A stretch of 64,000 bases of DNA from a virus. Positions 5,197 to 59,950 of this stretch are shown in pieces; positions within the stretch are counted from its first letter, which is position 1; each line of letters begins with the position of its first letter. The position numbers and the translations under genes were made by a program. The stretch spans positions 40,369-104,368 of the IMG/VR virus record IMGVR_UViG_3300033153_010326; one strand, 5' to 3'. Below the pieces are notes generated by a model. It was not told the origin of the DNA and searched no databases. It saw only the letters and a list, made by a program, of their open reading frames with translations.

Positions 5197-5442
5197 ATGG
5201 ATAATGATTTTGTTTTAATTAGACTTGAAAGATTAGCAAAAAAAATATCAACTTTAGAGGGAACTCTTTTAACTACATCTAATATGTTAGAAGATAAGGA
5301 TAACAAAGATTCTGTTTATTATGCAAAAGAAAATATAGAAGGAGTTGCAGAATTTTTAAATGATATAAGAAATGACGTAGATTTATTGTGCGAACAAATT
5401 AATAAAAAAGAAACAGGATTAGATTTGGAAAATCCATTTTAA
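5197..5442 (+). CDS. hypothetical helical protein, 81 aa
   Basis: I chose ATG 5197, which follows ACAGGAGAATAAA, over the in-frame ATG at 5143 inside the preceding gene. The product has helical segments rich in acidic residues (LIRLERLAKKISTLEGTLL, EGVAEFLNDIRNDVDLLC). Function unknown. Confidence 0.55.
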   Translation: MDNDFVLIRLERLAKKISTLEGTLLTTSNMLEDKDNKDSVYYAKENIEGVAEFLNDIRNDVDLLCEQINKKETGLDLENPF

Positions 5443-5457
5443 AGGAGAAAACTAAAT

Positions 5458-5826
5458 ATGCCTTATATCTCAGCGAAAAATGATAGAAGAAAGAAATTAA
5501 GACATGGAGAACCTGCTTTAAATGCAGGAGAGTTAAATTATCAAATTTTCTATTATATTAAACATTATGATTGGAGAAAACATCACCAAATTGATTATAC
5601 AATGATACAAACTATACATAAATTTGTTAATAAATTTTTAGGAAAAAATCCTAATTACCAGAGGTGGAATGATATGACAGGTTGTTTGATAAGATGTTAT
5701 AAAGAAATTAAAAGAAGGTTGAATATAAATGTTAAGGAGATATTGATAGAGATTATGGAAGATTATGATAATGAAATTGCAAGATACGAAGATACTAAAA
5801 TTATTTCTAATTCGGATGTAGAGTAG
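5458..5826 (+). CDS. conserved phage protein (DUF6899-like)
   Basis: The opening MPYIS, the GELNYQI segment and the C-terminal YEDTKIISNSDVE correspond to a recurrent phage protein (DUF6899 type) with M-P-Y-I, G-E-L-N-Y and P-Y-E-D-x-K-I-x-x-N-G-D-V blocks. Its function is not established. RBS AAAGGAGAAAACTAAAT. It lies among early small genes. Confidence 0.6.
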   Translation: MPYISAKNDRRKKLRHGEPALNAGELNYQIFYYIKHYDWRKHHQIDYTMIQTIHKFVNKFLGKNPNYQRWNDMTGCLIRCYKEIKRRLNINVKEILIEIMEDYDNEIARYEDTKIISNSDVE

Positions 5827-5834
5827 GAGATAAT

Positions 5835-6098
5835 ATGAAACTATTAGCTACTAAAAAAATGAAACAATTATTAAGAAAAGGAAAATATTTAGCAAAAAAA
5901 GATAAACTTAAAGTAACTAGTCCAGATTATATGTATATGCTTATAAATGATACTCTTAAAAACGGATGGCATTATAATGTGGATTTATCTTATTCTGGAA
6001 TACATGTATATGCTTTTAAACCTCCTTTGGATTTTAGGGCTAGACCAGCAGATTATTATTTAGCAAGTAAATTTAAAAAACGAAAAGGAGGTGGTTAA
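5835..6098 (+). CDS. hypothetical protein, 87 aa
   Basis: Not recognised. Basic N-terminal helix (MKLLATKKMKQLLRKGKYL), a beta-rich middle (GWHYNVDLSYSGIHVYAF) and a basic C-terminus ending KKRKGGG. The last codons encode the strong AAAGGAGGTGG Shine-Dalgarno used by the short ORF that follows. Confidence 0.55.
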   Translation: MKLLATKKMKQLLRKGKYLAKKDKLKVTSPDYMYMLINDTLKNGWHYNVDLSYSGIHVYAFKPPLDFRARPADYYLASKFKKRKGGG

Positions 6099-6156: not shown

Positions 6157-6776
6157 AGCTAGCAGGAGCGATTGAGTTTGATACCAAAGATGGTGGTCAA
6201 ACTTGGAGGAATAGTATAACTATTCCTTTAGATGAAATGGGAATTTATGTTGGAGACCCTGTAAAGACTGAACCTGTTGCTACTGGTATGGATGTTATGG
6301 AAGCTCAAAATAAATTTAATGGGTGGATTCAATCAGGTAATTATGATATATTTGAAAAGATGTTTACAAGAATTGTTCAAAAAGATATTAGATTAGTTAA
6401 TAGAGCAGATTTTTTGATTGTTCATTTATTTCCTGATATACCTACTACTGGAACTATTCACGAAATGGCTTTAGCGTGGATGCAAAAGAAACCTATATAT
6501 TTAATATGGAAAGATGCTAAGAGCAAATTATCAAAGTGGGCATTATATTTAGTTATTTCTTCAGGAGGGCGATTATTTGATAGTGAAAATAAACTTACAG
6601 AGTTTATAAGGGTAAAATATAATCTTAAAAATCAAAGTTTTAGAGTTCAATTTATTCAAATTATAAAAGCCATAAGTAGACTTATAGAGGAAAATTTATA
6701 TAATTTAAAAACGAATAGTAATGGTAATCAAGAAAAAATTAAACAGGACTTAGAAAAGAAAGAGGAGAAGAAATAA
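6153..6776 (+). CDS. nucleoside 2-deoxyribosyltransferase-like protein
   Basis: The N-terminal LAGAIEF with GGQTWRNSI, the middle RADFLIVHLFPDIPTTGTIHEMALAW and the KPIYLIW strand fit the nucleoside 2-deoxyribosyltransferase family: a Rossmann-like fold with G-T-x-x-E catalytic glutamate, here E in GTIHEMA. Such enzymes exchange bases on deoxynucleosides, or hydrolyse them, in nucleotide salvage. The charged C-terminal tail (about 45 aa) is an addition. The only in-frame start is TTG, with no Shine-Dalgarno of its own, overlapping the upstream short ORF. The product sits next to the DUF5664 protein, another nucleotide-metabolism gene. Confidence 0.72.
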   Translation: MKLAGAIEFDTKDGGQTWRNSITIPLDEMGIYVGDPVKTEPVATGMDVMEAQNKFNGWIQSGNYDIFEKMFTRIVQKDIRLVNRADFLIVHLFPDIPTTGTIHEMALAWMQKKPIYLIWKDAKSKLSKWALYLVISSGGRLFDSENKLTEFIRVKYNLKNQSFRVQFIQIIKAISRLIEENLYNLKTNSNGNQEKIKQDLEKKEEKK

Positions 6777-7492
6777 TGAGGCGATTTAAAGGAGGAGCTA
6801 CCAGAAATAATGATGAAAATAAAAATGATTATGATGGTTTTTTATCTTCCATGGTATTAAACAAATATGACCAATTTTTAGAAAGAGAAAATCAAATTGC
6901 ATGGGCTTCTGGTTTGTTTGAAGGAGAGGGTTGTGTTTTTAAAGCTACTACAAAAAACAAACATGCTCGTTTAGAAATTAAATTAACAGATGAAGATGTA
7001 TTACAAAGATTTTTAAAAATTGTTGGATATGGAAAAATATATGGGTCTTATTGGGCTAAAAAAAGTACAAAACCTTATTGGTCATGGCAATGCAACAAAG
7101 ACCAAGAAACTATAGAAGTATTAAAATTACTTTATCCTTATTTAGGAACAAGAAGAAAAAATAGAGTAAAAGAAATTTGTTCTATAGAAAGACTTGCTGA
7201 AATAAATGCAATGCCTCCTTTAGTTATAAAAGCTTTTGGTGATTATATGACTAAACATAGAAAACAAGCAGATGGAAAGTTAAGACCAAGTGATAATTGG
7301 AAAAAAGGCATACCTCAAGAAGCTTATTTCCAATCAGCATGGAGACATTTTTTAGATGTATATTTGCATCATAAAGGATATAATGATAAAACTACAGAAA
7401 ATCTAGAAGATTCTCTTTGTGCATTGATTTTTAATATAATGGGATATTTGCATGAATTATTGAAAAATAAATTATTGAAGGATAAAAAATAA
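6776..7492 (+). CDS. DUF5664 (dATP/dGTP diphosphohydrolase-like) protein interrupted by LAGLIDADG domain
   Basis: The N-terminus (FKGGATRNNDENKNDYDGFL) and the C-terminus from about residue 147 (KHRKQADGKLRPSDNWKKG, SAWRHFLDVYLHH, EDSLCALIFNIMGYLHE) are the two ends of the phage DUF5664 family, annotated as dATP/dGTP diphosphohydrolase. Between them, residues about 38-145 form a LAGLIDADG domain (WASGLFEGEGCVF). The frame stays open through the insertion. No intein splice residues are visible: no Cys/Ser at the left edge and no HN-C/S/T at the right. The FLSSMVLNKYDQFL segment before the insert resembles PPLVIKAFGDYM after it. 238 aa against roughly 130 aa usual. Confidence 0.75.
   Translation: MRRFKGGATRNNDENKNDYDGFLSSMVLNKYDQFLERENQIAWASGLFEGEGCVFKATTKNKHARLEIKLTDEDVLQRFLKIVGYGKIYGSYWAKKSTKPYWSWQCNKDQETIEVLKLLYPYLGTRRKNRVKEICSIERLAEINAMPPLVIKAFGDYMTKHRKQADGKLRPSDNWKKGIPQEAYFQSAWRHFLDVYLHHKGYNDKTTENLEDSLCALIFNIMGYLHELLKNKLLKDKK
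6887..7210 (+). mobile_element. in-frame LAGLIDADG insertion within the DUF5664 gene
   Basis: Approximate bounds of the extra segment. It starts with the LAGLIDADG helix and ends after SIERLAEINAM. The short helix V-L/I-x-x-Y/F-x-x-Y/F-L/M occurs on both sides, as if target sequence had been duplicated. Without splice motifs it would remain in the protein, unless removed as RNA, which the sequence does not show. Confidence 0.6.
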
Positions 7493-22998: not shown

Positions 22999-23101
22999 AT
23001 ATTGTAATTGTAAAAAACCAGCTTTAGCAGGGATGCTTACTAAGAATAAAGAACAACAATGTGCTAAGTGTGGAAAAATTATTAAAAAGAGGATAAAATG
23101 A
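22988..23101 (+). CDS. zinc-ribbon peptide, 37 aa
   Basis: Starts in the last codons of the cupin gene and ends with ATGA on the polymerase start. CNC and CAKCG make a small zinc ribbon with a basic tail (KIIKKRIK). A related ribbon occurs directly after the polymerase at 26669, so two zinc peptides flank it. Confidence 0.5.
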   Translation: MLIKYCNCKKPALAGMLTKNKEQQCAKCGKIIKKRIK

Positions 23102-26100
23102 AACTTATAAATATTGCGAATGAGTTTAGGTCAATTTATTTATTCTGTAGAGATGATGCAGGAAAATTAAATATAAAAACGATTAATAGTTTCTTTCCTT
23201 ATTATTACATCCTCGATGATGATGGTTCTTATCTAAGTTTTACAGGTGAACCCCTTAGAAAAGTAATTGTATCTGCTCCTCATGAGATAGCTCAAAATAG
23301 AACTGATAGTTCTTATGAAGCTGATATTCAACTAACTAAAAGATATTTAATAGATAAAATAGATAAATTAGAAAAAACTAAAATTAAATATTCTTTTATT
23401 GATATAGAAATTTTAACAGATGAAAAACCCAATGTTCAAATAGCGAATAAACCTGTAAGTTGTATTTCCGTATATAATTCCTTTACTGATGAAATTAAAA
23501 CTTTCTTCTTAAAAGATTATGATAGTGATGAAAGGGAAATGTTAGAAGATTTTGTAGTGTATATGAAATCGGAAGCATTTGATTTATGGTTAAGTTGGTT
23601 TGTAGATTTTGATTATGATTATTTATTTCATAGATATCATCTTTTAACTGGAGAAGTTTTTCCTGAAGCTATTAGCCCTATAGGAAAATCTAGATATGGG
23701 AAAAAAGATGTATATTATCCAGCAGGAATAAGTATTGTAGATTATCTTGAATGGTTTAAGAAAATAACTATGAATAAAGAATTACAATACACTTTAGATT
23801 ATATTGCACAAAAACATTTAGGAAAAGGAAAAGTTCATTCTAAAGTAGATTTTTCTAAACTTACAGATGAAATTAAAGAAAGAAATATAGAAGATGTAAC
23901 TATAATGAAACAATTAGAAGAAAAGAAACAACTTATTCCTTACTTCGATGAAATTAGAAGAATGTCTAAAGTTGAATGGGAAGATTTAAATTTTAATAGT
24001 CGAATTTTAGATATGCTTTTATTATCAGAAGCGAAGAATCAAAAAGTAGTTTTGCCAATGAAACCTGATGAAAGAAGAGGAACTTTAGCTGATAAACCAG
24101 ATTTTACAGGAGCTTATCGTGATATACTGGAAAGTGGTGCTTTTTTTGACGTGGGAGCATATGATATTTCCGAAGCGTACCCATCCATGATAATAAATTT
24201 CGCTTTAGATATTGCTAACTTAAAATCAGAAAAAGAAGAAAATACTTTACCTATAACTATAAAAAATATGGATAGAGATGAAAATAAAAATTTACAATAT
24301 AATAAAGACCATTCTTTAAAAACTATAGTAGGAAATACTCATTATTATATTCAAGATAATACTAAACTTTTATCAACTGTAACTAAAAAACTATTAACTT
24401 TAAAAAGGAAAATTAAAAATCAATTGAAAGAATGTAAATTGGATAGTCAAGAATATATTGATACTAAGCAAAGTTATGATGCTATAAAGACAATTGTAAA
24501 TTCTTGTTTTACACCAGATACAAATATAATTACAACAGAAGGTATTAAAAATATTAAAGATATTAAAATAGGAGATAAGGTATATAATGTAAATCCTATA
24601 ACTTTAAAAGTTGAAGAAGATGAAATAATAGATACTCAAAAATTAAATTATAATGGAGATATTTATAATTATAAAAATGATTTAACAAATTTAAAAATTA
24701 CAAATGACCATAAATTTTTAGTTCAAAATAAACGAACTCAAAAAAATAAATTTGAATCAGTTAAAGAATTATATAAACAATCTGGTAAATATTATACTAT
24801 TCCTTCAATACAACCTAGAATAATAGATTCATCAACTATAATTACTCTTTTAAATATTTTACAAAAAAATGATGGTAAAATTTGGATGAGAACAAAAAAT
24901 ATGTATAAAATAAGAAAAACAAAAATTTTCCCTTTTAAAAAGAAACTTACAAAAAGAAATAATCATCATACTTGGTATATTTGTAATGCTAAAGAAATAA
25001 CTGAAAAAAAATTATTATCTTTTTATAAAGCTGATTGGAAAATTTATGGAGAAATAAGACCTAAAACAAAATTATCACCTATAATATTTTCTAAATATCA
25101 TTTTATTCAATTATTAGGTTGGTTTATATCAGAAGGAAGTATTTATAAATCTAAAATGAAACAATATGAAAAAACAAAAAGAGATATTAGTACTGTTATA
25201 AGTATTAGTCAATATGATAAACAAAATAGAGAAGAAATAGAAGATTTACTTAAAAATTGCGATTTTGATATTAATTGGAAAAATAATAAAGGATTATCAT
25301 TTTGTTCAGAAGTTTTATATTACTATTTTAAAGATAATTGTGGAAATAATTCTTTTAATAAAAAAATTCCAAAATTTATTTTTAAAGAAAGATACAATAT
25401 TATTTCTTTATTTTGGAATACTTTATATAAAGGAGATGGTAATAAAAGAGAAAAAAGATACAATACTAACTCTTGGCAATTAACTCAGGATTTATTAAAT
25501 TTGTTAATTTTAATGGGAAATAATTCAGTTAGATATTATAAAGATAAAAATACTTATAGAATTGTATGGAGCAATACAAATAAATCTATAAATAATAAAC
25601 AAATTAAAACTGAAAAATATAATGGATTTGTTTATTGTTGTACTACTAAAAAAAATCATAATCTATTTGCTGGTAGGAAGGGAAATTTTAGTTTAACAGG
25701 ACAATGCTATGGAGTATTTGGAAATCGGTTCTTTCGTTTATTTTCTGAAGAAATAGCGGAAACTACTACTTTTTTAGTAAGAGATTTTTTAGATTATGTA
25801 GTAACTGCTTTATATAAGAAAGGACATAAAGTTTTATATGTAGATACGGACAGCGTTATGATAGATAATCATAAGGAAGATATTTCAAATCTTTTAAATG
25901 ACTTAGCAATTAAATGGGCAAAAGAAAAATACGACAAAGATAATATTTCTTTAAATTTTGGTTTTGAAGGAGTTTTTGAGAGTATATTATTATGTACCAA
26001 ATGTAGGTATAAAGGTTATTTAAAAACACCAAAAGGAATTGAACCTATTACAAAAGGATTAGAGATTAAAAGAAAAGATAGTACAATTTATATGAAGGAA

Positions 26101-26688
26101 TTTCAAGAAATTTTAATAGATAAAATTATAAAACTTCGACAATCAAAAGAATTAATTTTTAAATGGATAAGAAGCGAAATTAATAATTTTAAGAATCAAT
26201 CCCTACAAGATATTTCTTGTCCTTGTAAATTAGGAATGAAACCAGAAGAATACAAAAATGTTCCGATTTTTTTAAGAGCTTTAAATAATACTAAAGACTA
26301 TACTAAAAAAGTTGGTGAAGCTTTTTATTATATTTATGTAAAACCTATAGAAGAACCTAAAATTAAGACTATAATTAAGGATAAAGGGAATTTAGGCCGG
26401 GATGATATTGTATTGGAAAAAAATATAACTCGTAAAGAAGGTATCGAATATGCTAAAAAAGAATGGGAAGTTCCTACTTATTTATCAAAAAATATAAGTG
26501 TAGTACATAAAAAAGAACAACCTAAGAATGTATTAGCATTTGATGAAGATAATTTTAATCATATAGAGAAATCAATGATAGATTGGAAAATGATGTTGGA
26601 ACGGAATATTTTAAAAAAGTTGGTAACAATATTTGAAGCAATGCGATGGGATTTGGAGGGATTTTTAAATGAAGAAAAGACAAAGTAA
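23098..26688 (+). CDS. polB: B-family DNA polymerase with intein
   Basis: The extein is about 796 aa. Exonuclease motif I is SFIDIEI (D102, E104) and motif II FVDFDYDYLFH near residue 168. Polymerase motif A is AYDISEAYPSM near residue 358, motif B is IVNS/CYGVFGNRFF, and motif C is YVDTDSVM near residue 914. This gives a proofreading replicative polymerase. A 400-aa intein interrupts motif B between Ser469 and the Cys that follows the intein, so the enzyme is inactive until splicing. RBS is AAAAAGAGGATAAA, and the gene overlaps its zinc-peptide neighbours on both sides. Confidence 0.93.
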   Translation: MKLINIANEFRSIYLFCRDDAGKLNIKTINSFFPYYYILDDDGSYLSFTGEPLRKVIVSAPHEIAQNRTDSSYEADIQLTKRYLIDKIDKLEKTKIKYSFIDIEILTDEKPNVQIANKPVSCISVYNSFTDEIKTFFLKDYDSDEREMLEDFVVYMKSEAFDLWLSWFVDFDYDYLFHRYHLLTGEVFPEAISPIGKSRYGKKDVYYPAGISIVDYLEWFKKITMNKELQYTLDYIAQKHLGKGKVHSKVDFSKLTDEIKERNIEDVTIMKQLEEKKQLIPYFDEIRRMSKVEWEDLNFNSRILDMLLLSEAKNQKVVLPMKPDERRGTLADKPDFTGAYRDILESGAFFDVGAYDISEAYPSMIINFALDIANLKSEKEENTLPITIKNMDRDENKNLQYNKDHSLKTIVGNTHYYIQDNTKLLSTVTKKLLTLKRKIKNQLKECKLDSQEYIDTKQSYDAIKTIVNSCFTPDTNIITTEGIKNIKDIKIGDKVYNVNPITLKVEEDEIIDTQKLNYNGDIYNYKNDLTNLKITNDHKFLVQNKRTQKNKFESVKELYKQSGKYYTIPSIQPRIIDSSTIITLLNILQKNDGKIWMRTKNMYKIRKTKIFPFKKKLTKRNNHHTWYICNAKEITEKKLLSFYKADWKIYGEIRPKTKLSPIIFSKYHFIQLLGWFISEGSIYKSKMKQYEKTKRDISTVISISQYDKQNREEIEDLLKNCDFDINWKNNKGLSFCSEVLYYYFKDNCGNNSFNKKIPKFIFKERYNIISLFWNTLYKGDGNKREKRYNTNSWQLTQDLLNLLILMGNNSVRYYKDKNTYRIVWSNTNKSINNKQIKTEKYNGFVYCCTTKKNHNLFAGRKGNFSLTGQCYGVFGNRFFRLFSEEIAETTTFLVRDFLDYVVTALYKKGHKVLYVDTDSVMIDNHKEDISNLLNDLAIKWAKEKYDKDNISLNFGFEGVFESILLCTKCRYKGYLKTPKGIEPITKGLEIKRKDSTIYMKEFQEILIDKIIKLRQSKELIFKWIRSEINNFKNQSLQDISCPCKLGMKPEEYKNVPIFLRALNNTKDYTKKVGEAFYYIYVKPIEEPKIKTIIKDKGNLGRDDIVLEKNITRKEGIEYAKKEWEVPTYLSKNISVVHKKEQPKNVLAFDEDNFNHIEKSMIDWKMMLERNILKKLVTIFEAMRWDLEGFLNEEKTK
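24505..25704 (+). mobile_element. PolB motif-B intein with LAGLIDADG endonuclease
   Basis: Begins at Cys470 (SCFTPDTNIITTEGIKNI) and ends at Gln869 (KGNFSLTGQ), just before CYGVFG. Block B (LKITNDHKFLV with N-x-x-H), DOD endonuclease motifs LLGWFISEGSI and LFWNTLYKGDGN, and block F (FVYCCTTKKNHNLFAG) are present. The terminal residue is Gln rather than Asn and the penultimate residue is Gly rather than His, a rarer C-terminal set. Removing it restores the N-S-x-Y-G motif with C+1 as the nucleophile. Confidence 0.88.
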
Positions 26689-34120: not shown

Positions 34121-34759
34121 ATGAGACAAGAAGAAATATATATTATTGGTGGAGGAGCTTCTTTAAAAGGATTTGATTTTGATTTATTAAAAGATAAAGA
34201 TACTATTGTTGTTAATAAAACTATATTTCATGTTAAAAATCCTACTTATTTTATAACTATGGATTATATGTTTTTAAAAAATTATAGAGAAAAAATTAAA
34301 AGAAATAAAACTGCTAAGTTTTTTGTTGGAGCTATGAATAATGCTTATTTAAAATATAAAAATGGAAAATTAACAGATACTAAACATAAAATTTCTTATG
34401 ATTTAGATATGATAGATGTTCTTATTTTTTCTAAATATGATAAAGGTATTGGATTTGATTTTACTAATTTTAGGCATGGATGTAATAGCGGTTACTGTGC
34501 TCTTCAGTTAGCAATTATATTAGGATATAAAAAAATAAATTTACTAGGTATAGATTTAAATTTTACAGAAAATACCCATTTTCATGGAGGATATGGATAT
34601 TCAAAAAATCATTTTAAGAAAAGATTAGCTTTTTATACTTTATATTTTAGATATGCTTTTTATGTATTACAAAATCACCCTGAAATTCAAATTTATAATT
34701 GTTCTGATATTAGTTTATTAAAAAATTATTTACCATTTAAAAATTTAGGAGAAATCTAA
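34121..34759 (+). CDS. DUF115/MptE-like nucleotide-sugar protein
   Basis: EEIYIIGGGASLKGFDFDLL is a glycine-rich nucleotide-binding loop, followed by TIVVNKTIFHVKNPTYFITM and late INLLGIDLNFTENTHFHGG. This is the DUF115 (6-hydroxymethylpterin pyrophosphokinase MptE-like) arrangement, often linked to glycosylation of flagellin or surface glycans. Start at ATG 34121 with GAGGATTAAA. The homologue at 44564 shares the GGG(A/S)S loop. Enzymatic activity is not certain. Confidence 0.55.
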   Translation: MRQEEIYIIGGGASLKGFDFDLLKDKDTIVVNKTIFHVKNPTYFITMDYMFLKNYREKIKRNKTAKFFVGAMNNAYLKYKNGKLTDTKHKISYDLDMIDVLIFSKYDKGIGFDFTNFRHGCNSGYCALQLAIILGYKKINLLGIDLNFTENTHFHGGYGYSKNHFKKRLAFYTLYFRYAFYVLQNHPEIQIYNCSDISLLKNYLPFKNLGEI

Positions 34760-35481
34760 TGAAATATTATTGTAAAGAATCTGGATGTAATAATAAGATT
34801 CATTATAATACTTTTAAATATGGACAGAAAAGATGTAGAAAATGTGCGAATAAACAACATAGTAAGAGAATGAAAGACAAAAACAATCCTTTTTATGGTA
34901 AAAAACATACAATTAAAACTAAAAAAAGAATTAGTATAGTAAATAATGGTAAAAATAATGGTAATTATATAGATGGAAGATGCTCTAAAATTTATTATTG
35001 CAAAGAAAAAAATTGCAATAAAGAAATAACTATTATGTCTGCTATTTATGGTAAAGGAAGATGTAAATCATGTGCTAAAAAAGGAAAATTAAATCCTATT
35101 CAAAGCGGTAAAAATAATCCTAATTTTGGGAATGGAGATAAAATGAAAGGAAAAAATAATCCTATGTTTGGTAAAATTGCTCACCATAGTAAAAAAATCA
35201 AATATAAAAAAATTCTTATGAGGTCTTCCTGGGAAATGGCTTATGCTAAATATTTAGACAAATTAGGAATTAAATGGTTATATGAATCAAAAACTTTCGA
35301 TTTAGGAGATTGTACTTATACTCCAGATTTTTATTTACCCGAACAAAATAAATATATAGAAATTAAAGGTTGGTGGAGAAACAATGATAAAAGAAAATTC
35401 AAATTATTTATAAAAAAATATCCAAATAAAAATATAATAGTATTAATGAAATTTGATTTACAAGCAAAGGAGATATTATGA
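34759..35481 (+). CDS. homing endonuclease: zinc motifs + NUMOD3 + PD-(D/E)XK domain
   Basis: Two CK-type zinc modules (YYCKESGCNN...CRKC, YYCKEKNCNK...CKSC) alternate with NUMOD3-like repeats (NNPFYGKKH, NNPNFG, NNPMFG). From about residue 150 a PD-(D/E)XK nuclease follows: RSSWEMAYAKYLDKLGIKW, YTPDFYLP with D, and YIEIKGWW with E-x-K. The layout matches phage homing endonucleases with an EDxHD/Vsr-like catalytic core. It sits inside the glycan island with a one-base overlap to its neighbour, so it is a passenger gene. Confidence 0.75.
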   Translation: MKYYCKESGCNNKIHYNTFKYGQKRCRKCANKQHSKRMKDKNNPFYGKKHTIKTKKRISIVNNGKNNGNYIDGRCSKIYYCKEKNCNKEITIMSAIYGKGRCKSCAKKGKLNPIQSGKNNPNFGNGDKMKGKNNPMFGKIAHHSKKIKYKKILMRSSWEMAYAKYLDKLGIKWLYESKTFDLGDCTYTPDFYLPEQNKYIEIKGWWRNNDKRKFKLFIKKYPNKNIIVLMKFDLQAKEIL

Positions 35482-36194
35482 TTTTTGATATAGTTATTCC
35501 CTCATTCAAACGCAAAGAAAAACTTATTAGATGTTTAAACTCCATTTTTAAAGCTAAAAAAAATCTAAAAAAAGACCAAATTCAAATATATATTTATTTT
35601 GATAATAATGATAAAATAACTTACAATTATTTTACAAATAAATATAACAATATTAAATGTAATCTCATGAACAAACAATACAGAGCCTTTGGAATTTGGA
35701 ATAAACATTTACAAATATTGGATTCATGTGGAATGGTATACCTTTGTGATGATACTCAATTATATCCAGAAACTTTATATATTTTATTTGAATTATTTAA
35801 TCAAATTTATAAAAACACAGATGGAATATTAACTTTTAATCAATATAATCTAGAATCAGCTTCTAAATATGCTATGGGATTAATTGGAAAAAAGTTTATT
35901 AATAGATTTCCTAATAATCAATGTTTTTGTCCTGATTATGTCTCGTTTTATGCTGATGCAGAATTAGGAAGATTTGCGGAATCTTTAAATAAATTTTATT
36001 TTGGTAATGGAATAAAAATACATCATTTTCATCCAGCATTTTATCCAAATGAAAAAGATTCAACTCATTTATTAGTAAGAGATGAACAACAAAAAATAGA
36101 TAAAGAAGTTAATAAAAAGAGAAGAGAACGAGGATTGCTTTGGGGTAAAGATTTTAAATTAATTAGACCTACAATAGAAGGAAATATAAAATGA
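35478..36194 (+). CDS. GT-A glycosyltransferase (family 2-like)
   Basis: FDIVIPSFKRKEKLIRCLNS is the GT2 nucleotide-binding start and GMVYLCDDTQLYPETL contains the D-D metal site. A later segment (FGNGIKIHHFHPAFYP) includes histidines in the acceptor region. 238 aa is short, without membrane helix. Acceptor unknown. Overlaps its neighbours by 4 nt at each end. Confidence 0.7.
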   Translation: MIFDIVIPSFKRKEKLIRCLNSIFKAKKNLKKDQIQIYIYFDNNDKITYNYFTNKYNNIKCNLMNKQYRAFGIWNKHLQILDSCGMVYLCDDTQLYPETLYILFELFNQIYKNTDGILTFNQYNLESASKYAMGLIGKKFINRFPNNQCFCPDYVSFYADAELGRFAESLNKFYFGNGIKIHHFHPAFYPNEKDSTHLLVRDEQQKIDKEVNKKRRERGLLWGKDFKLIRPTIEGNIK

Positions 36195-37393
36195 AAGTAA
36201 TATTTTTAGATTGGCATAGATGGACATTTCCTCCAGATAAGAATAGTTTGAAAAAACTTCTTATTAAATGCGGAGTAGAATGTAAAGATATGAAACCCGC
36301 TCCTGTAAATTCTGGTAATTCTAATTTACTTATTAAATCAAATCATAAACCTCAAAATAATTATAGGGGATTTGATGTAAAATCTATGATAAAAGCAGGA
36401 GTATTACGAGAAACAAAATGGTATGTTAATAATTCTAAAGTAACAAAAAAATATATGGTAGAAGTAATGGAGTATATAGATTGGGCTTTTAAAATATTTG
36501 AAGAAGAAAAGCCTAATTACATAGTAATTGAAGGAGGATTGACTCATTTTCATAGAGCAATATTAGAAGTTGCTAGAGAATTAAATATAGGTATTATTGC
36601 AATTGAAAATTCTTTTATTAAAGATAAAATATTTATAGAATTTAATACTGGTTATGTATGTAATAGACATTCTTTTGCAAGATGTTCTAAAGATTGGATA
36701 AATACTAGAGTGTTAAATTCTTTTAAAATAAAAAAAGTAGATAATATTATACAAAGTATTTTTTCTAAAAATAATTTAAAATATCCAACAACAGGCAATT
36801 TTGATTATTCTCAATTAAAATACGATAAAACTATTTTTGTACCATTACAAGTAGCTTTTGACCAAGTAGTAGTATACGATTCTAAATTTAATAATAAAAC
36901 TTTTATAGAAGAAGTTATGAAAATTTTTACTAAGTATTTTAAGAATTGGAATATTATTTTTAAATGCCATCCTAAAGAAGAAAAAAGTGGTATATTAAGA
37001 CAGACAGGGAATTGGATACAAGATAATATTTCAAATAATAATATGTATCTTATAAGAGGAGCAGAAGAATCTCCTAATACTCAAAATTTAATACAACATG
37101 CCGATTTGGTTTGGGTGAATAATTCGCAAGCAGGATTAGAAGCTTGTTTATTAGATAAGCCCGTAGTAGTTTTTGGTGATGCTTTTTATTCTAAAAAAGG
37201 CTTTACTTTAGAATATAATAAATATATTAATTGGAAAGAGATAAAATTAAACCCTGAATCTATTAAAAATATTGACCAAGTTAAACTTTGGTTTTATTAT
37301 TTTTATAAGTGGCTTTATAATAAATCATTTACTAAACAAGATGAAGAAAAAATTAAAAATATATTAAATATACAGGAGAAAGAAAATGGATAA
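36191..37393 (+). CDS. KpsC/KpsS-like capsule polysaccharide transferase
   Basis: FVPLQVAFDQVVVYDS, IFKCHPKEE, and the C-terminal ADLVWVNNSQAGLEACLLDK with PVVVFGDAFYSKKGF are the conserved blocks of the capsule_synth family (KpsC/KpsS/LipB), the beta-Kdo transferases that build capsule linkers. The N-terminal half (about 1-200) is a Rossmann-like domain. The presence of this family suggests a capsule-type or phospholipid-linked glycan product. Confidence 0.75.
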   Translation: MKVIFLDWHRWTFPPDKNSLKKLLIKCGVECKDMKPAPVNSGNSNLLIKSNHKPQNNYRGFDVKSMIKAGVLRETKWYVNNSKVTKKYMVEVMEYIDWAFKIFEEEKPNYIVIEGGLTHFHRAILEVARELNIGIIAIENSFIKDKIFIEFNTGYVCNRHSFARCSKDWINTRVLNSFKIKKVDNIIQSIFSKNNLKYPTTGNFDYSQLKYDKTIFVPLQVAFDQVVVYDSKFNNKTFIEEVMKIFTKYFKNWNIIFKCHPKEEKSGILRQTGNWIQDNISNNNMYLIRGAEESPNTQNLIQHADLVWVNNSQAGLEACLLDKPVVVFGDAFYSKKGFTLEYNKYINWKEIKLNPESIKNIDQVKLWFYYFYKWLYNKSFTKQDEEKIKNILNIQEKENG

Positions 37394-40597: not shown

Positions 40598-41887
40598 ATG
40601 AAAAAATTAGCATTAATAAAAGTTTTTTTAAATGAATTTCAAAGAAAAACTCATTCACTTACTTTTGATTATTTAATAGCAAGTATTAATCAAGCAAAAA
40701 TAGAGATAGATATAAAAATTTGTTATAGTTTACAAGAAATTAAAGAATATAAACCCGATATAGTAGGTATTTCTACTGTTACCGAATCTTATATGATTGC
40801 TAAACAATTAGCAAAAGACATTAAAAAAGAATTAGGAAGTATAGTAATTATAGGAGGAACTCATATAACAGCATTACCTCAAACTATGTCAAAAGATATG
40901 GATATTGCAATAATAGGAGAAGGGGAAAGAACTATAGTAGAAATATTAAAATTGTCAGAAAAACCTCCTTGGCATTTAACTGGAATAGATTCTATTTTAG
41001 GAATAGCTTATTGGAAAAATGGTAAACTTTTTCAAACTAACCCAAGACTTTATATTCCTATGGATGAATTACCTATACCTATTCATCCAAATATTAAATA
41101 TGATTTTGGAGAGGCTATAGCTATTTTAACTACTAGAGGATGTGTTAATCGCTGTGTTCATTGTTCTGAACAAAAAATATGGAGACCTTTTAGATATTTG
41201 TCTGGCAAAAGATTAGCTGAAATTATAGATGTTCATTATAAAAGAAGTGGAATAACTGATTATGTATTTATGGATGATATTTCAGTATTTAATCTTAAAC
41301 GATTAGTAGAATTAAAAGAAGAACTTATAAAAAGAAATATATTTGATAAAATTAAAATTGTAAAAATTTCTACTAATTCTGAAATTATTACTGAAGATAT
41401 TGTAAAAATATTAAAAGAATTAGGATTAAGATTAGCAGGGTTTGGTTTAGAATCCGCTTCTTCTAGAATTTTAAAAGAAATGAAAAGAGGAAGAGTAACT
41501 ATAGAAGATTTTAAAAGATGTATAACTTTATTTGGAAAATATGGGATAAGGTCTGGAGCCTCTACAGTATGGGGATTTCCTGGAGAAACTTTAGAAGATA
41601 TGGAAAAAAATAAAAAATTTTTGGTAGAATGGAATGGCAAATATCAATTCAAATCTTTTATGCAATATTGCTGTCAACCTTTGCCTGGTTCGGATTTGTG
41701 GGATATGATGTATGCAAAAGGGAAAGTATCTTTAGATATGGATTTTTCAACAATGAAAATTCATCCAAAAAATATAAAAGAAAATTGGTTATATATTAAT
41801 GAGGATACTGTAAATAAAGAAGATTTTATAAAATTTTTAAATCAAACCAGAAAAGAAATAAGAGAGGCTAAAAAAAATAAAAAATAA
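40598..41887 (+). CDS. B12-binding radical SAM enzyme
   Basis: A B12-binding-like N-terminal domain (DIVGISTVTESYMIAKQLAK, SIVIIGGTHITALPQ, AIIGEGERTIVEIL) and a radical SAM core with TTRGCVNRCVHCSEQ and late LRLAGFGLESAS. 429 aa, a typical length for cobalamin-dependent radical SAM enzymes such as methylases. RBS AGAAAGGAAATAATT. Together with 39007 it makes an adjacent pair, suggesting sequential radical steps on one substrate. Confidence 0.8.
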   Translation: MKKLALIKVFLNEFQRKTHSLTFDYLIASINQAKIEIDIKICYSLQEIKEYKPDIVGISTVTESYMIAKQLAKDIKKELGSIVIIGGTHITALPQTMSKDMDIAIIGEGERTIVEILKLSEKPPWHLTGIDSILGIAYWKNGKLFQTNPRLYIPMDELPIPIHPNIKYDFGEAIAILTTRGCVNRCVHCSEQKIWRPFRYLSGKRLAEIIDVHYKRSGITDYVFMDDISVFNLKRLVELKEELIKRNIFDKIKIVKISTNSEIITEDIVKILKELGLRLAGFGLESASSRILKEMKRGRVTIEDFKRCITLFGKYGIRSGASTVWGFPGETLEDMEKNKKFLVEWNGKYQFKSFMQYCCQPLPGSDLWDMMYAKGKVSLDMDFSTMKIHPKNIKENWLYINEDTVNKEDFIKFLNQTRKEIREAKKNKK

Positions 41888-41898
41888 GGAGAAGATAA

Positions 41899-43047
41899 AT
41901 GAAAAAAATTGGAATAATTTCTTGTTTTGGATATAAAAATTGGGGAGATGATGCTCAATTATGTAATGCTATTTTAAAATTAAAAAAGAATAATTATAAG
42001 AATATTTTAGTTTTTTCAAGAGCAGGATATATAAAAGAATTAACTAAAACTCCTATGGTTTTTTCTTCTCATATTTTATTTAAAAATTGTAAAACAAATG
42101 AACAGTATTTAAAAAAATACCAATTTTTATTACAAAACTATAACCAACCTAATAAATTAAGTATTAATGAAAAAGTATTTATTAAAAATTTATCAAAAAT
42201 TGATATATTATGGTTTTCTGGAAGTGGAGCTATTAATACTCTTAAATTATCAAGATTATGTATTTTTTTCTTGCCTTGTATATTAGCTAAAAAATTAGGA
42301 AAAAAAGTAATTTTAACAGGACAAGGAGTAGGAAATTGTGATAATAAAGAATATCATCCTTTAATGAAAGAAGCTTTAAATTCAATAGATATAATAACAG
42401 TAAGAGATTTTGATTCAGGTATTAATCAATTAAAACAATTAGGAATTACATCGTCAATATATAAAGGAGTTGATGATGCTTTTAATTATCCTATTACTAC
42501 TAATAAATTTAAATCTTTAAAAAATAAACAAGTATTAGGTATTAATATTTCTTTTCTTATAACTCCTAAATTAAAAAAGATTTTATATAATTTTGCAATA
42601 ATAATGAAAAATCAAGGATACTTTCCTGTATTTAATTATTTTCAAAGAGAAGAAAAAATTGCTAAAGAATGTAGTAAAGGTAAATTTCCTGTTGTTGGAT
42701 TTAATAAAGTTTCTGAAATGGCAGAATTTTATAATTATTGTAAAATAGCTATTGGAATGAGATATCATTCTGTTATTTTTGCTTTAAGTCAAAAAGTTCC
42801 TACTTTAAATATATATTTAAATGAATATCAAGCAAATAAAATAAAAGCTATTGAAAAAGAATTAAATATTAAAATGGGAGTTAATTGTATTAAAGATACA
42901 CCAACTGCTAAAGAACTAGTGGATTTAATAACGAACATATCTAGTTTGTGTAATCAAACTAAAGAAGTATTAATTTCAGCCCATAAACAATGGACAGAAA
43001 AAACAAATTTAATATTTAATTTATTAAAAGGAAAATATGAAAAATAA
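41899..43047 (+). CDS. csaB-like: polysaccharide pyruvyl transferase
   Basis: IISCFGYKNWGDDAQLCNAI is the conserved N-terminal glycine/N-W-G-D motif, VILTGQGVGNCDNKEYHPLM the middle, VRDFDSGINQLKQLGI the next block and GMRYHSVIFALSQKVPTLNI the C-terminal G-x-R-x-H motif of the PS_pyruv_trans family. It ketalises pyruvate onto a sugar of a surface polysaccharide. 382 aa. RBS AATAAGGAGAAGATAA. Confidence 0.87.
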   Translation: MKKIGIISCFGYKNWGDDAQLCNAILKLKKNNYKNILVFSRAGYIKELTKTPMVFSSHILFKNCKTNEQYLKKYQFLLQNYNQPNKLSINEKVFIKNLSKIDILWFSGSGAINTLKLSRLCIFFLPCILAKKLGKKVILTGQGVGNCDNKEYHPLMKEALNSIDIITVRDFDSGINQLKQLGITSSIYKGVDDAFNYPITTNKFKSLKNKQVLGINISFLITPKLKKILYNFAIIMKNQGYFPVFNYFQREEKIAKECSKGKFPVVGFNKVSEMAEFYNYCKIAIGMRYHSVIFALSQKVPTLNIYLNEYQANKIKAIEKELNIKMGVNCIKDTPTAKELVDLITNISSLCNQTKEVLISAHKQWTEKTNLIFNLLKGKYEK

Positions 43048-54121: not shown

Positions 54122-55219
54122 CTAGTAAGATAGCACTAAAAAATTACATTCGTATTCTTGTATTCCAGTTCTGTCCGATTGTGCAAATACAATTTCTTGA
54201 TTTCTAAAAACAGTATACTCCCAATCCGTAGTCCAATTTCCACCTGTTAAAGGTCTATGTTCCATACTTAATACTCCTGGTGGAGTAGTAATAGTAGTTC
54301 TCATAGTATTCATTAAGGTAGTTAAATCTTCATAACCATCTTCATCAAATAATTTTCCTCTAACTGTAATTTCATGACTTCTTTTTCCTCCAGGTATTTT
54401 AATAGACCCATCAGCTCTATTTCCATGATGTACTATATCTTTATTTTTAGGTTGAGGGTCGTCAATATGAAATACATAAGGTAATTTATATCCTTCACAA
54501 CATTCACATTCCACAGTAGGAACTACAATAGTATCTGGAGTAGCTCCTGTAGCATCTAAATCTACAGGAGAAGCTGAAAAATGATTATGATTTTCTACAT
54601 GAATACAATCCATATAACCATTGAAAAAATTGGCAACATTTTTTGTACCTATATATAAAATTCCTGCAAAAGTATCAATATCATTATCTTCAGTATAAGC
54701 TACTTGAGTTCCATCTAAATAAATTGCATATACATTTGCTATTTTTATTAAAAGTATATGATGCCAATCGGTATCAGTAATTTCAGTTCCAATCATTTCA
54801 ATTTTTGTATCTCCTCCAGAAATCATCCTAAAAACTAATCCAGTTCCATGAGCATGTGCAAGATACCATCTATCTCCACCGCCTTCATATTGTCCTATAT
54901 AATATTCAGTTCCAGAGTGGTCATTATGTTTTACGAAAAGTGATATATTTTGAGTATCAGTATTACTTCCACAAAAATCCCAATTATCAGAATCTGGAAT
55001 TGATAAAAAAGCAGTAGTTCCATTAAATACTCCAGCATGACTTCCAAATTTTTTAATAGTATTACTAAAAGTTACATCTGTATTGGTAACAATAGTACCC
55101 CCATTTGATTTATCAATTACATCATTATTAAGACGTAATAATAATTTAATAGCTTCATATTCTGCTAAAGCTGATTTACTTTTAAAAATCACTCTCACTT
55201 CATAATTTTTGTATCCCAT
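54122..55219 (-). CDS. tail protein with LamG-like lectin domain and Dit-like C-terminus
   Basis: Residues about 55-205 are a LamG/concanavalin-like sandwich: HAGVFNGTTAFLSIPDSDNW, ISLFVKHNDHSGTEYYIG, WHHILLIKIANVYAIYLDGT and LYIGTKNVANFFNGYMDCI are its classic strands. The C-terminus (PGGKRSHEITVRGKLFDEDG, VLSMEHRPLTGG, FRNQEIVFAQSDRTGIQEYE) resembles the distal tail protein (Dit) domain. Located right after the tape measure gene, where Dit is expected, so probably a lectin-decorated Dit. Confidence 0.6.
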   Translation of the reverse strand: MGYKNYEVRVIFKSKSALAEYEAIKLLLRLNNDVIDKSNGGTIVTNTDVTFSNTIKKFGSHAGVFNGTTAFLSIPDSDNWDFCGSNTDTQNISLFVKHNDHSGTEYYIGQYEGGGDRWYLAHAHGTGLVFRMISGGDTKIEMIGTEITDTDWHHILLIKIANVYAIYLDGTQVAYTEDNDIDTFAGILYIGTKNVANFFNGYMDCIHVENHNHFSASPVDLDATGATPDTIVVPTVECECCEGYKLPYVFHIDDPQPKNKDIVHHGNRADGSIKIPGGKRSHEITVRGKLFDEDGYEDLTTLMNTMRTTITTPPGVLSMEHRPLTGGNWTTDWEYTVFRNQEIVFAQSDRTGIQEYECNFLVLSY

Positions 55220-58200
55220 TATAACTCCTTTGGATTTTTCTTTATATGGTCTAAAGTGTCTTTTTTAAGTTGGTCAGAACGCTGTTTAAATAGTTCATCC
55301 CATCTTTCTGGTGTCATTTCTCCTTTAATATATACCTGAAAATCTCCCATATCTATATGATTATGAATTTCTTTTGGGGCTTGGACATCAGCTCTACGAT
55401 ACAATTTTACATCTCTCGTTTCACGAGCCATTCCCATTTGTATATCAGCTTCTGCTTGTAATCTTCCTATATTCTTTATCTTACCAGAAATACCAGTCAT
55501 TAATTCTTGTTGAGATAATTCTAATACTGATTTTTGAAGTTCTAAAAATTTTTCTTTAAGATTTTCAATTGCTTCAAATCCTCTTTTTTCCCAAGGATTC
55601 CAAAATTGATTAGCATCAAATTTCATTTGTTCTTCTACAGTTAATTTTAATCTAGGTTTTGGGAAATCAACTCCTAACTTAAAAATATCATTTCTGGTTT
55701 TATTAACTGCATCTTTGCTTTGAGAATTAAAATGACTAAAAAAATCATCTATTATTTCTCTATCAAATATATTAGTTCTATATTTCCAAGCTATTTGTTT
55801 TGGTTTTAATTGTGTTAATTCTATAGCTCTTTTTATACGACCACGTTCTAATTCATCTGCTTTTGCATATTGTCCAAATAAACCTGTTACTGCATCCCAT
55901 TCTTTTCTTTTTTCTTTAGTAATAGCAACTACTTTTTGTAATTCTAAATTTTTAAGTTGTAATCGGTATTGTTCTTCTCCTATCACTTCTCTCATTAAAT
56001 CTAATTCTCTTTTTTTCATATCAATAATATCTGATTCACTTGCTCCTAAAGTTTTAAGTATAGTTATTTGAGCATTTAAAATTTGGTCTTTAATAGTTCT
56101 TCTGGATTGTAATTCTTTTTCTATTAAATTATTATTTTCTTTTTGAACTCTTAATATTTCTTCTTTAATATCTAAATTTCCTAATTCTAAATCTAAAGCT
56201 TCCTCTTTAAATTTCGCTATTTCTAATTCACTTGCTCCTACTATTTTCATAAGATTTACTTGATGCTTAATAATTTGTTGGATTTCTTTATGAGTATCTC
56301 TTCTTACTTCTGTTGCTTGTACATCTGCTTTTTGTTTAACTGTGAAATTCATTAAAGTTCTTTTATCTGAGTTTATTTGTCGTTGAAATTCCTCATGTTT
56401 TTTCTGTTGTTCTTCTCTTGAAATTCCTGTACTTTCTATAAGAGCGTCAAGAGCTATTTTAAACATCCTTATTCCTGAAGATATATGTGCTCCTGCCACT
56501 CCAAAAGTACGAATATCAAATCCTACTGATTTGCCCATTGCTTCATCCATACTTCCCAATACAATATTAGCTTCAGATGTATTATCTCTTAATTTCGCAA
56601 TTGTTTGTACTAAAAGTCTCATATTAGCAGTATAAAAACCTACTTCTGAACCTGCTTGTCTAAATTGGTCTCTACTAGCTTCTAAATTATCATTTATACC
56701 TTTTATAGCTTGTGCTAATGTCATTCCAGCCAAAGCATTATTTAAATATTCATGAGCCACTATTGCTAAAAGATTTTTTAATCTTCCTAATTGTGCTCTA
56801 GTAGTTTCTTCTCTAATAGCTTTCATTCTTTTAGCAAAACCTTCAGCTTCTTCATTTGCTCTTTGAACTTGTCTTTTTAGTTCATCAAAATTGTCAATTA
56901 ATAAACGCACAGCTACACCTGCTCTAGTTGCAAAAACATCTTGAATCTTTTGACCTTGTTGAGCTGTAATAGCTCCTTGTGTTTTAATTTGTTTACTGAT
57001 TTGTTCTATAATCTCTAAAAATTTAATAGGTTTATTTGGGTCAAAAGTTATACCAAAAACATCTGCTAATTTACTAGAATTTTTAGTTAATTGTAAAATA
57101 GCTCTTCCAGTTAATCTTCCAGTTCTTCCTCCTCTTAATAAACGAGTATTTAAAAAACCTAAAGTTGTAATTATTTCAGTAAAATCATCTGATAATCCTG
57201 AAACATATGGAGCAAATTTAGTATAAGATTCTGTTAATTCTTGTAATTGAACATCTTGAGTATTTCCACACCATAAAGTTTTTCCGTTTCTTCTAACAAA
57301 TAAAGTATGATATTTTGGTACTTCTACACAATAAACTAATCCTTTATAATCAACCCATTCTTCAACAGAAGCTGTTTTTCTATTTTCTAGTTTAGCATAA
57401 TATTTATTCTTTTTATTATACATTAAAAATTCTGTTCTATTTGAAAACCCTATCATCCAATTCTCTCTAGTATTAGTCTTTATTCCTTTAATTTTTTTAG
57501 AAGTAGCTGGTCTTGTAAGATAAGTAGTACCATAATTGGCTTTTAACGCTATTTCTTGCAAATCATCTCTCATTTTTTTAGAACTGGTAATAATAACAAA
57601 ACCTTTTTTCTTAAAAGAACTATCTCCAAAAGCATAAGTTTGTAAAAATGCTCTTAATAAATCTTTCGATAAATTCTTAATACCATTAGGTATAAATTTT
57701 TCATATGATTTCCCAAATTGCTTGAGATATTGACAAAGTTGTTTATTATGAATATTAAACCCTCTATGAAATTCAGATACTGTATAAGGCATCTTTTTCA
57801 TTATAAGTTTTAAATCGTCCCAATATTTCGATTTTTTTGATTGATATATTGTTATCTTGTATGTAGGGTCGTCTCCTTCTATCCAAGTACAACAACCTTC
57901 ACTTAAATACCATCCTAAAAACTGTACCCATAATTTCATAGGAATTTTTTTAGCTTTTCTGTTTCCAGTTTTATTTTCTATTTCTGGTAATATGAAATAT
58001 TCTGGATTATCTCCTAACCAATTAGACCCACGATAAAAACTTTTAGGTCTTCCAAATACTTTTCCAGCTTCTGCTAAAACATAATTTTGATTTTTTGGTC
58101 TATAACCTACTTTAGTATATAATTTATGTTTAGGAGTTACTTTAATATCTGCAAATTTTCCTTTTAAATGACATAATTTGCCATCAAACCATTTTACTAC

Positions 58201-58956
58201 ATATTCTCTAGGTTTTTGATATTCTATTTCATTAGTCTTAGGATTTAATGTAGCTACTTTTTCAGTTTTATTTAAATCTTTAAAATATTTCCAACCTTGG
58301 TCAGTAAGAATTTCAGTATCTGGAGTATAGCAAGCATAAGTAAAAGTTAATAAATCAGATATTTTTTGCATTTTTTCTAAATCTGTTAAATTATCTCCTA
58401 TAGCATCTCCCATAGTATTAAAAATACCAGCTACAGCTCTAGCAGTATCTTTAGCATTATTCATAGTTCCTACCATAGCATTAATAACTGGTTCAAAAGC
58501 ATCTATAGCTTGTTGTGTAGATAAATTAGCAGTTCTTAAAAAATAAAAAGCTTCTGCCAAATCTTTAATAGGAATTCGAGTTTTTACAGCAACATCTAGA
58601 ATTTTTTGTTTAATTCTTGCCATATCGGTTTCTACTGTTTTAGAGGAAGCCGACACTACTGTTTTTATTCTGGCAAGACCTTCTTCTAAATCTAAATTGG
58701 CAATTATCATATCTCTAATAGTTGTTATAATTCCCATGAAAATTGACCTTAAAAGTAACCATACCGGTATAGTTAAAGCCGCTCTTAAAGCTAATTTCTG
58801 GAACTGTTGACCTAAACTTTTAGTTTTTTTGCCTAATTTATCACCTCCTTTGCCAGTTTTATCCGTTTCTGTCTGTATTTTTCTTAAACCCCTAACAACT
58901 AGTTTATCGCCTTGAATCGAAGCAAGAAAACTTATTAAATATTGTTTGTTATTCAT
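55219..58956 (-). CDS. tail tape measure protein with intein
   Basis: Extein about 888 aa. The N-terminal hydrophobic segment (PVWLLLRSIFMGIITTIRDM) and the core of the TP901/phage tail tape measure family are visible: LAEAFYFLRTANLSTQQAID, TARAVAGIFNTMGDAIG, then after the intein TESYTKFAPYVSGL and NTRLLRGGRTGRLTGRAILQ. Long coiled coils follow. Sets tail length and is injected with DNA. A 357-aa intein splits the conserved core between residues 208 and 566. Confidence 0.85.
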   Translation of the reverse strand: MNNKQYLISFLASIQGDKLVVRGLRKIQTETDKTGKGGDKLGKKTKSLGQQFQKLALRAALTIPVWLLLRSIFMGIITTIRDMIIANLDLEEGLARIKTVVSASSKTVETDMARIKQKILDVAVKTRIPIKDLAEAFYFLRTANLSTQQAIDAFEPVINAMVGTMNNAKDTARAVAGIFNTMGDAIGDNLTDLEKMQKISDLLTFTYACYTPDTEILTDQGWKYFKDLNKTEKVATLNPKTNEIEYQKPREYVVKWFDGKLCHLKGKFADIKVTPKHKLYTKVGYRPKNQNYVLAEAGKVFGRPKSFYRGSNWLGDNPEYFILPEIENKTGNRKAKKIPMKLWVQFLGWYLSEGCCTWIEGDDPTYKITIYQSKKSKYWDDLKLIMKKMPYTVSEFHRGFNIHNKQLCQYLKQFGKSYEKFIPNGIKNLSKDLLRAFLQTYAFGDSSFKKKGFVIITSSKKMRDDLQEIALKANYGTTYLTRPATSKKIKGIKTNTRENWMIGFSNRTEFLMYNKKNKYYAKLENRKTASVEEWVDYKGLVYCVEVPKYHTLFVRRNGKTLWCGNTQDVQLQELTESYTKFAPYVSGLSDDFTEIITTLGFLNTRLLRGGRTGRLTGRAILQLTKNSSKLADVFGITFDPNKPIKFLEIIEQISKQIKTQGAITAQQGQKIQDVFATRAGVAVRLLIDNFDELKRQVQRANEEAEGFAKRMKAIREETTRAQLGRLKNLLAIVAHEYLNNALAGMTLAQAIKGINDNLEASRDQFRQAGSEVGFYTANMRLLVQTIAKLRDNTSEANIVLGSMDEAMGKSVGFDIRTFGVAGAHISSGIRMFKIALDALIESTGISREEQQKKHEEFQRQINSDKRTLMNFTVKQKADVQATEVRRDTHKEIQQIIKHQVNLMKIVGASELEIAKFKEEALDLELGNLDIKEEILRVQKENNNLIEKELQSRRTIKDQILNAQITILKTLGASESDIIDMKKRELDLMREVIGEEQYRLQLKNLELQKVVAITKEKRKEWDAVTGLFGQYAKADELERGRIKRAIELTQLKPKQIAWKYRTNIFDREIIDDFFSHFNSQSKDAVNKTRNDIFKLGVDFPKPRLKLTVEEQMKFDANQFWNPWEKRGFEAIENLKEKFLELQKSVLELSQQELMTGISGKIKNIGRLQAEADIQMGMARETRDVKLYRRADVQAPKEIHNHIDMGDFQVYIKGEMTPERWDELFKQRSDQLKKDTLDHIKKNPKEL
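57262..58332 (-). mobile_element. tape measure protein intein with LAGLIDADG endonuclease
   Basis: Starts at Cys209 (CYTPDTEILTDQGWKYFKDL), contains block B (IKVTPKHKLYTKVG with T-P-x-H), endonuclease motifs FLGWYLSEGCC and FLQTYAFGDSS, block F (GLVYCVEVPKYHTLFVRRNG) and ends GKTLWCGN at residue 565 with Thr as +1. The C-terminal Asn is standard; the penultimate residue is Gly. Splicing would join TFTYA to TQDVQLQEL and restore the family core. Confidence 0.88.
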
Positions 58957-58958
58957 AA

Positions 58959-59315
58959 TTATTTCCTTTTAGGTGTAAATATTATTTTAGGTATTCCTGG
59001 TGCTTGTATTCTTTGTTTTTTATTGCCTTTTTCTAATTTATCTTGTTTTTTATTTTTTACTTTATTTCTATATACTAAATAAGCATCAACTCTTATTGCA
59101 TCCTTTAATACTTCTTCATCAATAAATTCTTCTTCTCTAATTAAATCAGTATATAAAGAATGATAAATATTTAACCAATTTAAATATAAAACTTGAAGAT
59201 ATCCAAAATCCATTTCGTTTTTAAATAAACGAACTCCATTAATATCTTTTGACATACTAAGCAAACTCTGATGTTTTTCGGATTTTGCTAAATTTCTTAC
59301 AATATCAGAAATCAT
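58959..59315 (-). CDS. possible tail assembly chaperone, 118 aa
   Basis: Helical protein with a basic C-terminus (NKVKNKKQDKLEKGNKKQRI). It lies between the tape measure gene and another helical gene, the place where paired tail assembly chaperones (T4-like gp-G/GT arrangement) occur. I see no clear slippery sequence at its junction with the upstream gene, so the frameshift arrangement is not supported. Confidence 0.5.
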   Translation of the reverse strand: MISDIVRNLAKSEKHQSLLSMSKDINGVRLFKNEMDFGYLQVLYLNWLNIYHSLYTDLIREEEFIDEEVLKDAIRVDAYLVYRNKVKNKKQDKLEKGNKKQRIQAPGIPKIIFTPKRK

Positions 59316-59950
59316 TATTGTACCCTATAAATTATATAATTTATATAGCTTAATGCTTTCGTTGTTATTTCATTATCAACCTTTTCAAATTCTTCATAAT
59401 TATTAAACTTTTTTACCCATTTATCTTCTACTAATTGTTCAAGCACTAAATAACAAGTATAAGCAGTAGCAAATATAGTAAGCTGGTCTTCTATAGAATA
59501 ACTTAACAAATCTGCCTTTTCTTCTGCTATATCATATAATCTATCTTTTAATGCTCTAATTTCCTTTTTTAATTTCTCTACGGTTTTTCTATCTTTTACT
59601 TGTGCTAATTCTATATATATTTTTTCTAAAGTATTTTTAGTAGTTATAAATTCTTTTTCCATCTTTTTTATATCTATACCTTTATCCTTATAAAGAGCTA
59701 TCCAATCTTTTTTAAATAAGAAAGTTTTATCTTTTATCATTTCTAAATATTTAATTCTACGAACTTTAAACATTTCTTTATTTTCTTCTGCATTAGGTTG
59801 TCTTATTCTATATTTATCCTTATCTACATCAAATTTTATCATATTATCTTTTACCATATCTTCAACTGCTGATTCTTGTTCTAATTCTTTTATAGCATTT
59901 AAAGCTAATTCTGCTTGTTCTTTTCTAGTCATTTCTTTTTTCTTTTCCAT
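59315..59950 (-). CDS. possible tail assembly chaperone / helical protein, 211 aa
   Basis: Charged, helical with coiled coil (LEKIYIELAQVKDRKTVEKL, KEIRALKDRLYDIAEEKADL) and a tyrosine-rich end. Adjacent to the previous gene with a one-base overlap. Role inferred only from its place between tail tube and tape measure genes. RBS AAGGAGGATGT. Confidence 0.5.
   Translation of the reverse strand: MEKKKEMTRKEQAELALNAIKELEQESAVEDMVKDNMIKFDVDKDKYRIRQPNAEENKEMFKVRRIKYLEMIKDKTFLFKKDWIALYKDKGIDIKKMEKEFITTKNTLEKIYIELAQVKDRKTVEKLKKEIRALKDRLYDIAEEKADLLSYSIEDQLTIFATAYTCYLVLEQLVEDKWVKKFNNYEEFEKVDNEITTKALSYINYIIYRVQ

Follow-up and report, generated by a model that had tools for sequence, protein, structure and literature searches.

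In the window analysed here, a stretch of 64,000 nucleotides from a viral genome (IMG/VR record IMGVR_UViG_3300033153_010326, positions 40,369 to 104,368), the gene of the tape measure protein (TMP) contains an in-frame element that is, with high probability, a mobile class 1 intein, whose precursor is predicted to splice to an 888-aa TMP and whose endonuclease domain is predicted to home into empty alleles. The class 1 intein itself is a known type, and no published precedent for the TMP as an intein host was found in the open-access literature.

The interrupted tape measure protein gene

The TMP gene occupies positions 55219 to 58956 on the minus strand and encodes a 1245-aa precursor, or 888 aa once spliced, the same length as was calculated for the joined extein in the preliminary description of this DNA. 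The intein coding region (57262 to 58332, minus strand; precursor residues 209-565, 357 aa) lies between the N-extein coding region for residues 1-208 (58333 to 58956, minus strand), which terminates in FTYA and whose boundary is supported by a gapless alignment to nine intein-free homologues, and the C-extein coding region (55219 to 57261, minus strand, including the stop codon), which begins with Thr+1 (TQDVQL). The earlier proposal that the intein resides inside the TMP core is borne out, as the element falls within the PF10145 core and the joining of its flanks restores the domain. In Pfam, PF10145 matches the precursor with 20.5 bits over a partial profile (positions 2-83) and the joined extein with 40.9 bits over positions 2-200 of 201, exceeding the curated cut-off of 33.2 bits, while the phrog_991 score increases from 42.7 to 72.5 bits. 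Removal of the intein leaves one continuous TMP domain, in keeping with the in-frame insertion of a class 1 intein.

With a profile constructed from the nine intein-free homologues, the precursor is resolved into two domains that meet at the edges of the intein. The signal of an intein in a TMP is not ascribed to chance, because the PHROGs search of this one ORF returns both TMP families and families of intein-bearing enzymes, because joining the flanks raises both domain scores, because the exact junction scores best against the shifted boundaries tried with that profile, and because two other virus contigs are filled at the identical site. In the AlphaFold2 model of the intein-free core (mean pLDDT 71, and about 80 around the site), the junction falls close to where a helix spanning residues 194-212 of L008 ends. 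Regarding genomic context, the tail module consists, in order, of a larger tail gene, two small genes, and the TMP gene, an arrangement on which ten loci agree.

The intein starts with CYTPDTEILTDQGW and ends with LWCGN, followed by Thr. All its motifs are encoded on the minus strand, comprising block A (CYTPDTEILTDQGWKYFKDL, with the nucleophile Cys1; 58273 to 58332), block B (DIKVTPKHKLY, with T66 and H69; 58117 to 58149), LAGLIDADG motif 1 (FLGWYLSEG; 57895 to 57921), LAGLIDADG motif 2 (FLQTYAFGDSS, with D237; 57616 to 57648), block F (VYCVEVPKYHTLFV, with His342; 57295 to 57336), and block G (GKTLWCGN; 57262 to 57285), in which the terminal residue is Asn357. The nucleophile Cys1, the block B sequence T66-P-K-H69, and Asn357 preceding Thr+1 are those of a class 1 intein; the penultimate residue is Gly356, where His is usual and not obligatory in this class. 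The preliminary description had credited the element with all intein blocks, which is accurate for the coordinates, the frame, Cys1, T-P-K-H, the two LAGLIDADG motifs, block F, and the Asn followed by Thr, but requires correction in block G, where the penultimate residue is not the canonical His.

Across 26 aligned inteins, C1, T6, T10, G13, H69, G146, D237, S251, Y329, R348, G350, and N357 are invariant, and T66 is found in at least 90% of them. Position 145 in motif 1 is acidic in every member (26/26) and is followed by Gly, so that both LAGLIDADG motifs end in an acidic residue (SEG and GDS) that is retained throughout the family, as in LAGLIDADG homing endonucleases. At the penultimate position, 25 of the 26 have Gly and the remaining one has Ser; none has His. 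The AlphaFold2 model of the intein (pLDDT 92.8) retrieves from the PDB the full-length VMA inteins TliVMA and PhoVMA as well as PI-PfuI and PI-SceI, with E values down to 4.6e-16, and since the model matches these structures, there is good support for a predicted architecture in which a LAGLIDADG endonuclease is inserted into a HINT domain. The element shares with these four inteins the full-length HINT and LAGLIDADG fold, Cys1, the TxxH signature of block B, and the terminal Asn, but differs from them in its sequence, which is only 10-16% identical, in the replacement of the penultimate His with Gly, and in its phage tail host.

Filled and empty sites among related phages

When the joined extein was used as a single-protein query against IMG/VR and GenBank phages, no relatives were returned, and the TMP relatives in IMG/VR were recovered with alignments instead; a scan of genome contigs yielded none, and none were found in plasmids. 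The nine intein-free homologues are 782-998 aa in length, with cores 43-57% identical to that of the window. It had been anticipated that such homologues would align through the junction, and 9/9 do so without a gap, reading [FY]TYA/TQD or, in L091, YTYA/KQD. The same site is filled in two other phages, one being G006 (L036/L039), found by searching the genomes behind the relatives, with an intein 73% identical to that of the window, and the other L040, found by a further scan, with an intein 67% identical. An assembly error as the source of the insertion was ruled out by these two contigs.

The TMP cores of the three carriers are 50-52% identical to one another (52% for G006 and 51% for L040 relative to the window), no closer than they are to intein-free relatives, and the TMP closest to that of the window is the intein-free L008, with 57% core identity. 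Horizontal homing of the TMP intein is indicated by these sequence comparisons, in which identity is 67-73% for the inteins against 50-52% for the TMP cores holding them and the nearest TMP has no intein. The distribution of the intein over the TMP tree requires three changes of state, and the grouping of the three carriers as one clade is rejected, though only marginally (p-AU 0.037) and with weak resolution of the tree. Agreement between the window and G006 at third codon positions amounts to 85% within 30 nt of the site and 62% within 150 nt, a peak of the kind that a short co-conversion tract would leave, which may in part reflect protein constraint. For the intein itself, a dN of 0.169 and a dS of 0.81, the latter near saturation, point to purifying selection. 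Taken together, distribution and selection fit an element that is functional and has been transferred horizontally more than once.

Mobility would proceed through cleavage of the intein-free TMP alleles of co-infecting relatives by the LAGLIDADG domain, at the codons around [FY]TYA/TQDV, after which repair from the filled allele would copy the intein into the cut TMP allele. A contrasting account regards the element as an immobile relic that still splices, has an inactive endonuclease, and has been inherited vertically and repeatedly lost. The absence of the intein from 9/12 of the TMPs compared is compatible with such losses, and no strongly supported branches force the three carriers apart; yet the inteins resemble one another far more than their host TMPs do, both acidic residues of the endonuclease are conserved in all 26 relatives, purifying selection extends over the intein, and its relatives are situated in many different genes, which together make this account very unlikely. 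The element in the window is best regarded as a real and mobile intein, probably active.

Predicted splicing and its possible consequences

According to the proposed mechanism, the gene would be translated as the 1245-aa precursor, and the HINT domain would excise residues 209-565 through an acyl shift at Cys1, transfer to Thr+1, and cyclisation of Asn357, thereby joining FTYA to TQDV. Splicing is expected here by analogy, because a published phage intein with a penultimate Gly splices fully: the intein of mycobacteriophage Bethlehem undergoes complete splicing with Gly at this position and is slowed when His is introduced (PMC5050341). The role of the penultimate His can also be taken over by the block F His (PMC5050341), which is present in the window intein as His342. 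The mycobacteriophage intein of that study, reported to splice completely, resembles the present element in being phage-borne and of class 1, with a penultimate Gly and a sporadic, mobile distribution; the intein hosts listed there differ, as they all bind nucleic acid and include a portal protein and no TMP (PMC5050341).

Two other readings concern splicing itself. If the insertion were dead and did not splice, the TMP would be broken or a fusion protein would be used unspliced; the missing penultimate His, together with the fact that splicing is a prediction, speaks for this reading. Against it stand a frame that is open over all 1245 aa, a dN that is low relative to dS within the intein, splicing residues intact at an identical site in three phages, and an intein fold predicted with high confidence, so that a dead insertion is extremely improbable. 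The other reading accepts splicing and assigns it a regulatory function, in that the TMP would splice slowly or only under certain conditions, thereby gating tail assembly and timing virion output. It draws on the non-canonical penultimate residue, a position that can influence how fast another phage intein splices (PMC5050341), and on the expectation that the TMP should not be functional while its conserved core is still interrupted by a folded insert. However, most relatives sharing the gene order are without the intein, and the penultimate Gly, which family members in unrelated genes also have, is characteristic of the family rather than an adaptation to the TMP, leaving little probability for a regulatory intein. 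The initial suggestion that splicing times late gene output found no evidence of regulation in its favour; because most relatives with the same gene order are without the intein, timing by splicing is not a general requirement, and tail assembly in this lineage can do without the intein. A broader version, similarly improbable, envisages a lineage of inteins that has specialised in virion-morphogenesis genes and moves from one tail gene to its neighbour, with the splicing of the TMP serving as a post-translational checkpoint in tail assembly. The preferred reading remains that of a mobile class 1 intein, and since related phages offer both filled and empty sites, homing between phages as well as the influence of splicing on tail assembly can be tested directly. 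A practical consequence concerns the derivation of tail length from the TMP, for which annotators should first check for splicing, given that an unspliced 1245-aa reading overestimates the length by approximately 40%.

Host genes of the intein family and neighbouring elements

Phage intein hosts published to date include TerL, ribonucleotide reductase, dCTP deaminase, UvrD and other helicases, gyrA, methylases, RDF, and portal proteins, a clustering in nucleic-acid enzymes that lends weight to the idea of inteins favouring, or regulating, DNA metabolism. The preliminary description considered the TMP an unusual intein host, which agrees with the literature (PMC5050341), but the case is not a one-off, since inteins of this family occupy the TMPs of five virus genomes at two positions. 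The second position adjoins a conserved AG motif in unrelated phages, with the junction LLKG/TRAG in L012 (host PF10145 score 63.6 bits) and LTG/SQAG in L016/L017 (91.6 bits). The family is also found in portal genes (three hosts by Pfam, of which L018 and L024 are over the cut-off and L023 is just under it), in a Mu F-like head gene (L025, under the cut-off), and in a gene of tail assembly chaperone position upstream of the TMP; the other hosts scanned with Pfam are an anaerobic ribonucleotide reductase and a trypsin-like protein. One intein family thus recurs in virion genes and colonises virion-assembly genes in addition to DNA-handling enzymes.

More distant relatives reside in other host genes, namely the inteins of Lak-A1, P1201 (thymidylate synthase), and GMA6 (terminase), which are homologous over all 357 residues at 25-30% identity. 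The intein of the archaeal plasmid P-10H_0 (LC711081; L093, 12001 to 13065) is 38% identical over its full length to the L040 allele, but its host is a radical SAM protein, which indicates that the family crosses into archaeal elements. In G006, a second gene (L013, 5001 to 6035), helicase- or ATPase-like by eye, carries an intein of the same family between GG and SRW. Homing elements in TMP genes have also been described in another form, as these genes can be interrupted by intron-borne homing endonucleases (PMC10448857). The element in phage ICP1 is similar in being a homing element in a TMP gene, but it is removed from the RNA as an intron and encodes an HNH rather than a LAGLIDADG nuclease (PMC10448857).

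Directly upstream of the TMP gene, a small gene of 118 aa (58959 to 59315, minus strand) is preceded by a 211-aa gene (59315 to 59950, minus strand), in a gene order (approximately 415 aa, approximately 218 aa, small gene, TMP) that is conserved in ten loci. Comparison of these two small genes with the Pfam and PHROGs family profiles gave no confident match, and their position suggests that they may encode tail assembly chaperones, the 211-aa gene being at the first chaperone position. In L003/L004, the TMP is empty and the homologue of the 118-aa gene holds an intein between IR and CDAY that is 43% identical to that of the window. Between the small upstream gene and the TMP gene of L085, an ORF (5431 to 5994) resembles a free-standing homing endonuclease by eye, and further ORFs of this appearance lie in or beside the tail module in L008 (7507 to 8103 and 8524 to 9261), L036 (12447 to 13067), and L011 (1277 to 1990). 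These putative endonucleases are Cys-rich, HNH-like, or VSR-like by eye, and with them the tail module of the relatives looks like a hotspot for homing elements.

The window also contains other elements. A search for a terminase by PF03237 found none in the record. RecA and an integrase are encoded in the window, and neither settles the cellular host. On the plus strand, the genes at 36191 to 37393, 40598 to 41887, and 41899 to 43047 encode capsule-synthesis-like, B12-binding radical SAM, and polysaccharide pyruvyl transferase proteins, respectively, within this viral genome. A 238-aa ORF (6776 to 7492, plus strand) matches LAGLIDADG_1 and then the N-terminal part of a dATP/dGTP diphosphohydrolase, and may have arisen through invasion of a nucleotide gene by a homing endonuclease. 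A protein with NUMOD3 and endonuclease-I-like matches (34759 to 35481, plus strand) is probably a free-standing homing endonuclease. A second intein (24505 to 25704, plus strand) corresponds to residues 470-869 of a family B DNA polymerase ORF (23098 to 26688), where it is inserted at the motif NS/CYG and terminates in Gln in place of Asn; four related virus genomes (G001, G006, G010, and G012) have DNA polymerases that lack this insertion.
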